The notes below the pieces were generated by a model. It searched no databases, had not been told where the DNA came from, and was given only the letters and a program-made list of their open reading frames with translations. 7,432 nt of DNA from Candidatus Hydrogenedentes bacterium CG07_land_8_20_14_0_80_42_17. Lineage in GTDB: Bacteria; UBA8481. Location of the stretch: assembly GCA_002780065.1 (NCBI GenBank), contig PEWQ01000045.1:1-7432 (forward strand), written 5' to 3'. Shown here piece after piece: positions 3,447 to 7,426 of the stretch. Numbering within the stretch: position 1 is the first letter of the stretch; each line of letters opens with the position of its first letter. The translations under genes were made by a program, and so were the position numbers.

Positions 3447-4982
3447 ATGATGAATATGAAATTTATATTGAGCTCTATATTTGTCACATTACTCATAATC
3501 GGCTGCGGTCAAGACCGAGACGCAGATCCGAAATACGTTCGGATTGCAATTTCATCCAATCCGCAGTCGCTCGATCCTGCACTTGCAACAGACGTAAACA
3601 GTGGAGACATTCTCGCAAAACTTTTCAACGGGCTCGTGAGGTTCGACGGAATATCGGTGGTCCCGGATCTGGCAGAAACATGGACGGTCTCTCCTGACGG
3701 AGTAAATTACAACTTCCTGATCCGTAAGAATGTTAAGTTTCAAAATGGCCGCGAGCTTACCGCTTCGGATATTGCCGCAAGTTTTTCCAGAATTCTCGAC
3801 CCGAAAACCCGCTCTAAACGAACTTGGGTCTTTGACGCGGTCGATACTTTTTTTGCTGAAGGGAATCGATTCAAAATGATTCTGAAACATCCGTCAGCGC
3901 CGTTTCTTTCTCTGCTCGCAATGCCTACCTGCTACATAGTTCCAATCGAAGAAGTGAATCGACTGGGAGATGAATTTGCCCGTCGCCCTTGCGGAACCGG
4001 CCCCTATCGATTCGTCCGTTGGGAAGATGACCGTTCGGTTCTCCTCGAAAAAAATAAAAATTATTTCGAAGGAGCTCCTGAAGTTGAAGGCATCATCTAC
4101 AGAATTGTTCCCGAGCCTCTGACTCAAACAGCATTATTGAAGAGAGGCTCACTCGACATCTGTGAGATACCCGAGATGCAAATTCCGGTATTTCGCAATG
4201 ACTCTGTTTGGAAGGAGAGGATTCAAACTGTTGATCAACTCGTCACCGTTTATGTTGCCATAAACACCGAGAGATTTACTGACGAACGAATTCGAAGAGC
4301 GTTCAACATGGCGATCGATGTCGATAAAATTATTTCTTCTATCAGGAATGGACTCGGCACCCGTTCGACAGGATCTGTTCCGCCGGCGCTCATGCCTGAA
4401 AAAATCACAGGATTTGAATACAATCCTATTGAAGCGAAGCGACTACTTAAATCTGCCGACTTCGACTTCAATAAAAAAATAGTTCTTCTGCGAAGTTCTG
4501 TCCGCGGCACGCTGGAGCCTGCTGAAGCTATTGCAGGGTTTCTTCGAGATATCGGTCTGAAGATACAAATCGAGCCGATGGAATTTTCAGCTATGCGCGG
4601 CCGCGCAAATAAAGGAGACTTCGATCTCTGCCTTTTGAATTGGTATGCCGACTACGCCGACGCAGAGAATTTTATTGCGCCGCTATTCTCTTCCAAAAAT
4701 ATCGGGTCTGCCGGAAATCGATCGAGATTCAGCGATTCTGAAACGGATTCTATGATCGAAAAGATTCTATCGCTCTGTCAAGGCAACGAAAGAGGCTCAG
4801 CAATAATCGCAGTATCGAAAAGAATAATAAAGAAAGCTCCGTGGATTTTTCTGTGGTATCCCCGCACTGCTGTAGCTGTATCGCCGAGGATTTCAGGATA
4901 CACGATTCCTGCGATATTCAATGGCGATAAAGGAACGAAATATAAAATCGTGAAGCGTGAAGTGAGACAACGAAATGATTAA
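3447..4982 (+). CDS. ABC transporter solute-binding lipoprotein, peptide/nickel family (SBP_bac_5)
   Basis: This 511-residue protein captures solute outside the cytoplasmic membrane and delivers it to the permeases encoded next. The N-terminus is a lipoprotein signal: K5, a hydrophobic stretch (6-18) and lipobox IIGC with acylated C20. Family features follow: NPQSLDPA (38-45), a GDILAKLFNGLVRFDG segment (53-68), PDLAETWTVSPDG (73-85), GRELTASDIAASFSRILDP (101-119), GTGPYRFVRWE (183-193), DERIRRAFNMAIDVDKII (279-296) and DFDLCLLNWYADYADAENF (391-409). Length is normal for dipeptide/oligopeptide-binding proteins. The solute is not decidable: peptides are most likely, but nickel, sugars and opines are also carried by this family. 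Three in-frame ATGs (3447, 3450, 3456) are possible starts; none has a Shine-Dalgarno sequence and all leave the signal intact. It is the first gene of the operon and its stop overlaps the next start by eight bases. Confidence 0.93.
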   Translation: MMNMKFILSSIFVTLLIIGCGQDRDADPKYVRIAISSNPQSLDPALATDVNSGDILAKLFNGLVRFDGISVVPDLAETWTVSPDGVNYNFLIRKNVKFQNGRELTASDIAASFSRILDPKTRSKRTWVFDAVDTFFAEGNRFKMILKHPSAPFLSLLAMPTCYIVPIEEVNRLGDEFARRPCGTGPYRFVRWEDDRSVLLEKNKNYFEGAPEVEGIIYRIVPEPLTQTALLKRGSLDICEIPEMQIPVFRNDSVWKERIQTVDQLVTVYVAINTERFTDERIRRAFNMAIDVDKIISSIRNGLGTRSTGSVPPALMPEKITGFEYNPIEAKRLLKSADFDFNKKIVLLRSSVRGTLEPAEAIAGFLRDIGLKIQIEPMEFSAMRGRANKGDFDLCLLNWYADYADAENFIAPLFSSKNIGSAGNRSRFSDSETDSMIEKILSLCQGNERGSAIIAVSKRIIKKAPWIFLWYPRTAVAVSPRISGYTIPAIFNGDKGTKYKIVKREVRQRND

Positions 4983-5889
4983 CTTTTTCTTTCGGAGAAT
5001 TGCAGGACTTATCTTCGTAATAATTGGTGTCACATTTATCGTTCACCTCTTCATTCATCTCGTGCCTGGTGATCCTGTCGATACAATCGTGGGGCAAAGT
5101 GTCTCCGAAGAAGACAGAATCGAATTGAGAAAAGAGCTTGGATTGGACAAGCCGCTTATTATTCAGTACTTCTTTTTTATGAAGAGGCTCTCGAAATTCG
5201 ATCTTGGTAAATCTATGATTACTCAAAAGCCGATTTCAGATATCATAATCGAGCGATTTCCGAGAACAATTTATCTTGCTCTGACCGCGTTCTCAATTTC
5301 ATTACTGCTCGGAATCGGGGCCGGAGCATTGACAGCGCTTTTTCCTCGAACAGCATTCGACAAAACAATTATGGTCATTGCGGTTCTAGGCGTAAGTGCT
5401 CCAGTATTCGTAACGGCTTTAATTTTTCGATATCTTCTCGCAGAAAAATTTTCGTTTCTTCCGCCGGCCGGATACGGTCCCATCGCATTCGTCATTCTTC
5501 CTGCAATGACGCTTGGCACCCGCTCCGCCGCATTTCTCGCGCGGCTGACAAGAACAACGTTGCTCGAAATTCTTTCCGAAGACTACATGCGGACTGCTCT
5601 TGCTAAGGGGCTCACTCCAGCCCGTGCGCTCTTCAAGCACGCGTTTCCAAACGCAATGCCTCCGCTCATCTCGATACTAATTCTCGACCTGGCAAATTAT
5701 CTGAACGGCTCAGTCATAACCGAAACAATCTTCGCGTGGCCCGGGCTCGGCAGGTTCGCGCTTACTGCAATATCTCAGCGCGATGTTCCTTCGATTCAGG
5801 CAATCGTTCTTGTCATGGCCGTCACTTATGTCCTCGCAATGACTTTAGCTGATCTCGCCCGCGCATGGCTTGATCCGAGGTTAAGATGA
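4975..5889 (+). CDS. ABC transporter permease, DppB/OppB type
   Basis: A 304-residue inner-membrane subunit that forms half of the transport channel. It has the standard family layout: first membrane helix at about 9-29, then a periplasmic part with HLVPGDPVD (28-36) and a KELGLDKPLIIQY segment (53-65), FDLGKS (75-80), and five further hydrophobic segments (about 99-122, 131-153, 168-187, 229-247 and 274-292). The cytoplasmic EAA loop that docks on the ATPase is at about 202-226: EDYMRTALAKGL followed by FKHAFPNAMPP, with conserved G212, H222 and P225-N226. The C-terminus LADLARAWLDPRLR is typical, so the protein is full length. The start ATG lies inside the last codons of the binding-protein gene, with GTGAG eight bases upstream as a weak ribosome binding site. 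The intact EAA loop means a cognate ATPase is needed, though none is encoded here. Confidence 0.95.
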   Translation: MINFFFRRIAGLIFVIIGVTFIVHLFIHLVPGDPVDTIVGQSVSEEDRIELRKELGLDKPLIIQYFFFMKRLSKFDLGKSMITQKPISDIIIERFPRTIYLALTAFSISLLLGIGAGALTALFPRTAFDKTIMVIAVLGVSAPVFVTALIFRYLLAEKFSFLPPAGYGPIAFVILPAMTLGTRSAAFLARLTRTTLLEILSEDYMRTALAKGLTPARALFKHAFPNAMPPLISILILDLANYLNGSVITETIFAWPGLGRFALTAISQRDVPSIQAIVLVMAVTYVLAMTLADLARAWLDPRLR

Positions 5890-6710
5890 AGACCTCAATC
5901 TCAATTCTCATTATTATTTTCGGCTTTGCTATTTTTGCGCCCTTATTGACTCCATATCCTGTTTCCGGAGATACCTCTCCGAAGATGGGAGAACAACTTT
6001 CGAACAGACATCTCGCTCCTTCAATCAAACATCCGTTCGGCACAGACGAACTCGGCCGCGACATATTCGCAAGAACACTTTACGGCGCGCGAATTTCGCT
6101 CGGAGTGGGACTTGCCGCGCGGATTCTTGCCGTTATTATCGGAGGGCTCATCGGCTCTATCGCAGGCTTCTACGGAGGAAAGACTGATTTTATTCTGTCG
6201 CGTCTGATAGAAATATTTCTAGCTTTTCCTTCATTGATTCTCGCAATCGGAATCGGCACTGCGCTTGGCTCCGGGCTCCTCACAGTAATAATCGCAATTG
6301 TCGCTGTCTCGTGGGTCGATGTTGCGGTTTTAATTCGAGCAGTCTCCGCCGAGATTTCAAAAAGAGATTTTGTAATGGCGGCTCGCGCTATCGGAGAACC
6401 TGAATCAATGATTTTATTCAAGCATGTCATTCCGCACTGCTATGCTCCGCTCATCGTCACCTTCTCTTTCGGAATTGCATCTGCGGTCATGATTGAGGCT
6501 TCACTTTCATTTTTGGGGTTGGGCTCATCCGGAAACAGTGTTTTAGGGCCTTCGTGGGGCTGGATGATTTATACTGCGGAAGCTTATCTCGGAGTAGCTC
6601 CGTGGGCAGTCTTCGGGCCCGGTCTGTTTCTTGCAATGACAGTTTTCGGATGGAATATGCTCGGCGACTCATTGCGTGACAAATTCGATGTAAAGGCAGA
6701 ATTGAGATGA
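5886..6710 (+). CDS. ABC transporter permease, DppC/OppC type
   Basis: A 274-residue inner-membrane subunit that pairs with the DppB-like protein. The first helix (about 5-21) leads into a periplasmic part ending with HPFGTDELGRDIFARTLYGA (49-68), the hallmark of this subunit. Five further hydrophobic segments follow (about 75-97, 107-127, 131-150, 186-210 and 239-258), with SFLGLG (208-213) and PSWGWMI (222-228) as in relatives. The EAA loop is at about 160-185: RDFVMAARAIGEPE, then FKHVIPHCYAP. In most relatives the last motif is HxxPN; here the asparagine is replaced by H184. The gene is slightly short at its N-terminus, where many relatives carry a cytoplasmic tail before the first helix. 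ATGA at 5886-5889 overlaps the previous stop, and GAGG sits five bases before the start. Confidence 0.94.
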   Translation: MKTSISILIIIFGFAIFAPLLTPYPVSGDTSPKMGEQLSNRHLAPSIKHPFGTDELGRDIFARTLYGARISLGVGLAARILAVIIGGLIGSIAGFYGGKTDFILSRLIEIFLAFPSLILAIGIGTALGSGLLTVIIAIVAVSWVDVAVLIRAVSAEISKRDFVMAARAIGEPESMILFKHVIPHCYAPLIVTFSFGIASAVMIEASLSFLGLGSSGNSVLGPSWGWMIYTAEAYLGVAPWAVFGPGLFLAMTVFGWNMLGDSLRDKFDVKAELR

Positions 6711-7426
6711 TAACTTTTTTATCGCTTATACTTTTAATTTCGGCGCCTGATACTCCGCAAATCGAGACTCACATCGAACGCGAAGAGCTCAATCAGATTA
6801 AAACCGCGGAGATTGCAATTGCGGCCGCTGAAGTTGAAATTTCCAAAAGTGAACGGCGCAGTCCGCTTCTTGACCGATTGTTGCAAGCCGCAAAGACTGC
6901 GTACGGAGAAGGCAGATATGAAGACGCAATCGGAATTGCGCGTCGAATCAGAGTATCCACAACGCGGCGCGGCGATTTCGACAGAGCAACAACAACCAGG
7001 CCTGCAGTGCCCGCAATCGATTCGCTGTATGAAGCGCTCGAACGGCTATTTGCCGCTGAAAACCAACATATCGATAATCCTCTGATAAACACTGCAAAAG
7101 AACTGATCGCAAATTCTGAGGCTGCGCTCGAGGCTGGACTGATAACTCAGGCAGATCAGCTTGCGCGCCGAGCAATTCTTATGCTCTCCGCTTTGCCGCC
7201 GCCGGAAGTCCGAAAAGAAAACACTTCTGAAACTCTGCCGCTGAATCTGAATTCTGTTTCGCTCAATAAATTGTTAACAGTTCCCGAAATGACTCCTGAA
7301 TTTGCAAAGAACATAATTTGGTTCAGAACAAATATCGGGCTGTTCACCTCGATAAATGAATTACGATTCGTTCCAGGTTTCGAATACAAATTCATGCAAA
7401 TTGCAAAAAATTATTTTACGCTGTAG
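6707..7426 (+). CDS. Helical-repeat protein with C-terminal ComEA-like helix-hairpin-helix domain
   Basis: A 239-residue protein I do not recognise as a named family. Residues 2-13 form a short hydrophobic stretch ending ISAPDT, a possible signal peptide lacking a positive charge near its start. Residues 24-83 and 103-163 are alanine- and charge-rich helices, each ending in a similar hairpin (AYGEGRYEDAIGIARRI and ALEAGLITQADQLARRAI), resembling a TPR-like repeat pair. After a proline-rich linker (164-180), residues 179-236 match the helix-hairpin-helix domain of ComEA-type proteins: LNLNSVSLNKLLTVPEM, KNIIWFRTNIGLFTSINEL, then VPGFEYKF. The usual PGIG hairpin of the first motif is PEMT here, so DNA binding by that motif is doubtful. 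ATGA at 6707-6710 overlaps the permease stop, with AAAGG ten bases upstream. Roles in DNA uptake, or in assembly of an exported complex, are both conceivable; neither is shown. Confidence 0.7.
   Translation: MITFLSLILLISAPDTPQIETHIEREELNQIKTAEIAIAAAEVEISKSERRSPLLDRLLQAAKTAYGEGRYEDAIGIARRIRVSTTRRGDFDRATTTRPAVPAIDSLYEALERLFAAENQHIDNPLINTAKELIANSEAALEAGLITQADQLARRAILMLSALPPPEVRKENTSETLPLNLNSVSLNKLLTVPEMTPEFAKNIIWFRTNIGLFTSINELRFVPGFEYKFMQIAKNYFTL

Follow-up and report, generated by a model that had tools for sequence, protein, structure and literature searches.

A helix-hairpin-helix protein gene with a conserved place behind dppC in a Dpp/Opp-type importer operon of Candidatus Hydrogenedentes

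The helix-hairpin-helix (HHH) domain of ComEA binds DNA via backbone contacts and lysines, of which K164 is critical for transformation in Bacillus subtilis (PMC9747964). Importers of family 5 (Dpp/Opp/Nik) have their binding protein and permeases encoded by dppA, dppB and dppC genes with standard domains. The locus described here has such a dppA-dppB-dppC set, but differs from those systems in that its operon has no ATPase genes and carries an extra gene, for an HHH protein, after dppC. It lies on contig C185 (PEWQ01000045.1) of the metagenome-assembled genome (MAG) of Candidatus Hydrogenedentes bacterium CG07_land_8_20_14_0_80_42_17 (2.39 Mb in 207 contigs, 86.9% complete), and the whole contig, 7,432 nucleotides in length, is the stretch that was analysed and is referred to below as the window.

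All four genes of the operon are on the plus strand. The dppA-like gene (3447..4982) encodes a family 5 solute-binding protein of 511 residues (SBP_bac_5, E 6.1e-80) in whose translation an N-terminal LIIGC lipobox-like motif can be read, and it overlaps by eight bases with the gene for a DppB-like permease (4975..5889; 304 residues; BPD_transp_1, E 2.5e-38, with its N-terminal domain at 7.8e-15). An ATGA overlap joins the latter to the gene for a DppC-like permease (5886..6710; 274 residues; BPD_transp_1, E 2.2e-19). With one SBP_bac_5 binding protein and two BPD_transp_1 permeases identified by Pfam, the operon is of the family 5 importer type. The HHH gene (6707..7426; 239 residues) begins with an ATG that overlaps the dppC stop codon, again as ATGA and just as had been noted in a preliminary description of this DNA, and AAAGG at 6692-6696 is a possible ribosome-binding site for it. 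The contig ends six bases past the HHH-gene stop, where the readable sequence stops. Upstream of dppA are a divergent SGNH-like gene and a glycosyltransferase gene. The window also contains a solitary N6/N4 DNA methyltransferase gene at 377-1225 (Pfam E 4.8e-53), beside which no restriction enzyme gene was recognised among the large open reading frames of the window.

Our sample of the phylum consisted of two incomplete MAGs of the same order and different families, that of the window (G000) and that of Candidatus Hydrogenedentota bacterium isolate J006 (G001; record RFFU01000019.1). The permease-HHH gene pair, whose recurrence in related genomes had been put forward as a check, does recur in J006, the sole related genome compared: the order dppA-dppB-dppC-HHH is found there too, with ATGA overlaps between dppB and dppC and between dppC and the HHH gene as in the window. 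The two HHH proteins are homologous over their whole length and 32% identical, having diverged faster than the accompanying DppB (62%) and DppC (65%) orthologues while retaining their position. Upstream of the J006 operon are an amidohydrolase gene and a GlmS-like gene (named from sequence), unlike the flank in the window. Conservation in this one genome pair is what suggests a functional link between the HHH protein and the transporter.

The overlap itself had been taken to tie synthesis of the HHH protein to that of the transporter. It is present, but the tie is weak, because 15 of the 53 same-strand neighbour pairs sampled from the window's genome can be read as having an ATGA overlap, and because in J006 a HisF-like gene (named from sequence), directly downstream of the HHH gene, overlaps it in the same way; unrelated genes can therefore share the operon. 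The informative evidence is the conserved order of the four genes rather than the overlap. The same observations lend weight to a serious rival explanation, in which the HHH protein is exported, has an envelope role of its own (for example with the lineage's TPR/coiled-coil HHH proteins or its HHH-tailed secretin) and is an ancient passenger in the dpp operon. Retention of the four-gene order across two families, though the upstream flanks changed, speaks against a passenger, which we regard as a possible, if on balance rather unlikely, explanation.

Outside the phylum, the neighbourhoods of the closest DppC homologues (40-49% identical) were surveyed in 28 genomes (loci L104-L131, for most with ~1.5 kb of flanking sequence to either side), and the HHH-domain profile matched only the two loci already known, one extra match (E 0.009) looking spurious. 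Since the closest DppC proteins of these 28 genomes have no HHH neighbour, this transporter type does not generally depend on the HHH protein and, as far as sampled, the dppC-HHH pairing appears specific to the phylum. Used as a single query against the genome contigs, the window protein had no relatives, and the alignment of the two HHH proteins matched only J006. In a search of 386 genomes with this alignment, those among the matches listed that came from other phyla had the HHH domain at their centre; the full-length protein was found in two genomes only, that of the window and J006. Viral contigs scanned for relatives of the HHH protein gave none. A literature search turned up no HHH protein in a peptide-transporter operon and nothing on J006, nor did it provide anything usable on roles that such domains may have apart from DNA (PsbU, GspK).

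Export of the window protein is likely, judging by its N-terminus and that of its homologue. Residues 1-11 form its most hydrophobic stretch, the top 11-residue stretches beginning at residues 1-5, and the J006 homologue has a conventional and clearer signal peptide. A short signal peptide is thus probable at residues 1-13 (6707..6745), and the export signal suggested earlier is plausible, although no positive charge precedes the hydrophobic stretch and the N-terminus is short. These last two features are what could be expected if the hydrophobic stretch were no signal and the protein were cytoplasmic, perhaps regulating the operon by binding nucleic acid; among the DNA enzymes of the cytoplasm, HHH domains are common. 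With the homologue's signal peptide conventional and residues 1-11 by far the most hydrophobic here, we consider a cytoplasmic protein very unlikely.

Between the putative signal peptide and the HHH domain, AlphaFold2 models built from the two-sequence alignment predict two units of three helices each. Confidence is moderate (mean pLDDT 69.7 and pTM 0.43 for the window protein; mean pLDDT 65.7 for the homologue), and the same arrangement is seen in both proteins. In the window protein, unit 1 spans residues 25-85 (6779..6961; helices 25-47, 53-67 and 71-85) and unit 2 residues 101-161 (7007..7189; helices 101-118, 125-142 and 146-161), their counterparts in the homologue having helices at 90-107, 112-126 and 130-144 and at 161-178, 183-200 and 204-232. 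The two similar helical hairpins of the preliminary description thus become two three-helix units in both models, but in sequence the units resemble each other only weakly (four comparisons with shuffle p of 0.56, 0.10, 0.02 and 0.11; hhalign E 0.019, probability 2.4%), so that the case for tandem repeats is structural and model-based. In Pfam at E values up to 1, HHH_3 was the sole match in the window protein; no TPR model matched, and the helical units were assigned to no family. Fold relatives retrieved for the helical part (unrelated bundles, designed proteins, a DUF4398 protein and a TatC insert) were set aside, as their Z values are common for helices.

The C-terminal domain, residues 179-237 (7241..7417), matches HHH_3 (PF12836) with an E value of 1.4e-10 and a score of 41.6 bits (cut-off 27), and modelled residues 175-239 superpose on Geobacillus ComEA (8dss_B) with a VIA-align Z of 12.0 and an rmsd of 1.3 over 65 residues. 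Pfam, AlphaFold2 and VIA-align therefore agree on the ComEA-like HHH fold that had been placed at residues 179-236. Such a likeness raises the possibility that the protein acts in the periplasm as a ComEA-like DNA receptor, serving natural transformation and expressed jointly with peptide uptake. Genes for ComEC are indeed present, as are others of type IV pilus-like or secretion kind, and the isolated domain is basic (pI 9.3), with lysines opposite two of the four that were tested in ComEA, so that it may bind DNA weakly. The motifs point the other way. The hairpins read VPEMT and VPGFE in the window protein, the second glycine of GxG being absent in both, and those of the homologue, PGMS and PGFS, also have no final G; of the ComEA-like repeats listed for the two genomes, all eight retain this residue. 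The position of K164 is occupied by Phe in the window protein and by Arg in the homologue; this position discriminates little, given that Thr, Met or Leu occurs there in the lineage's own ComEA-like repeats, and only the glycines discriminate. From these sequence motifs, the domain has probably lost DNA binding.

Scores with the NCBIfam ComEA models are likewise far below their cut-offs (TIGR01259, 27.9 versus 152.35 bits; TIGR00426, 13.4 versus 53.1 bits), the domain make-up differs from that of B. subtilis ComEA, and the window's genome encodes, beside a ComEC/Rec2 gene, a triple-HHH protein of 285 residues whose motifs are intact and which, by sequence, is a better ComEA candidate than the window protein. 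We thus consider a DNA receptor improbable: the DNA-uptake component that had been offered as one option for the HHH protein loses ground with GxG broken in both homologues and a separate triple-HHH protein next to ComEC. The window protein is likely an accessory part of the transporter rather than a DNA-uptake protein.

Proteins with HHH domains are numerous in this lineage, HHH_3 having 11 matches in the window's genome and 15 in J006, in unrelated settings, as would suit a passenger gene. In a tree of the domains, that of the window protein pairs with its homologue (94/84), and the pair is joined by TPR- and coiled-coil-HHH proteins of J006 (94/94 for the five), with both supports just below the star threshold of the tool, and this group is apart from the ComEA-like and secretin-tail domains. 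That the nearest domain relatives are TPR/coiled-coil HHH proteins again fits a passenger with its own envelope role. Several other HHH proteins came to light in the two genomes. On the minus strand of G000:C204 (L025:16115-19999), a secretin of ~1547 residues (Secretin, Secretin_N), cut at the end of the stretch examined, bears at its C-terminus four HHH_3 repeats in which GxG is not intact, and a 2818-residue open frame on G001:C88, with at least four HHH_3 matches, is similar to it at the C-terminal end; compared with the window protein, a secretin with an HHH tail may be the more unusual find. Neighbouring genes on G001:C28 (L026:910-5924) encode a TPR/coiled-coil/HHH protein of 1036 residues and a coiled-coil/HHH protein of 636 residues, adjoined by further TPR proteins. 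On G000:C15 (L093:2864-6031), a 1055-residue open frame combines HHH_3 (by profile) with amidase-like and phospholipase D-like parts (read from sequence).

In each of the two genomes, DppB genes were seen twice, and the Dpp/Opp-type ATPases likewise form two pairs. One pair is inside a complete second importer operon in both, and the other, encoded together with a HIT-domain protein as HIT-dppD-dppF, has no adjoining permease in either genome; the three genes are at L088:6272-8753 on G000:C6 and at L091:8773-11121 on G001:C119. With the first pair already accounted for by the complete second operon, we infer by elimination, from incomplete genomes, that HIT-dppD-dppF powers the window's transporter.

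As a tentative explanation, to which we give somewhat less than even weight, we propose that the HHH protein is exported, consists mostly of helices and assists a split Dpp/Opp-type importer as an accessory protein, and that its HHH domain serves for docking on protein. The importer genes would be divided between one locus with dppA-dppB-dppC and the HHH gene and another with HIT-dppD-dppF. Once exported, the protein would form a rod or scaffold with its two three-helix units, and the HHH domain, having lost glycines of the signature that binds DNA phosphate, would dock on a protein partner, which could be the permease, the lipoprotein-like binding protein or some other component of the envelope. 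We infer export, the partnership with DppDF, docking on protein and any effect on transport. The transporter-associated scaffold, another option of the preliminary description, is strengthened by conservation of the operon and by the degenerate hairpins. A bolder version, which we hold to be doubtful, is that the protein represents a new periplasmic accessory subunit of peptide ABC importers, in which an HHH domain that once bound DNA has become a protein-docking module carried by a helical stalk; such a subunit might connect the lipoprotein-like binding protein and the permease with further structures of the envelope.

The finding itself stands and is mildly out of the ordinary; the mechanism put forward for it is one suggested by sequence and structural models. 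If true, an accessory component would be added to a well-studied importer class, and the HHH protein would illustrate how a ComEA-type domain can serve in a role other than DNA binding. For exported HHH_3 proteins of poorly sampled phyla, the domain alone is no ground for annotation as a competence protein; such a label is unwise given a window protein without the signature glycines and a better ComEA candidate elsewhere in the same genome.

Compared with ComEA of B. subtilis and Geobacillus, the window protein is alike in having a C-terminal HHH_3 fold, probably extracytoplasmic, with another domain in front, but it has two helical units where ComEA has its oligomerization domain, and its gene is in a peptide-transporter operon. 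Closer to it in the domain tree are the helical, coiled-coil or TPR-HHH proteins of J006 (1036 and 636 residues on C28; 254 residues on C1), which also are apparently exported, with a helical N-terminal part and a single C-terminal HHH domain, and share with it W-[FY]-R after the first hairpin and a broken second hairpin; they differ in having true TPRs or coiled coils, other gene neighbourhoods and a first hairpin that ends in G. An HHH-fold protein is also known outside the cytoplasm, seated on a membrane complex. In a PDB search it gave a weak profile match to the window protein that is not significant by sequence (E 0.16), and it differs in having no helical units and in belonging to other organisms and another complex. 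It serves as an analogy for how an HHH fold could dock on protein, not as a family assignment.
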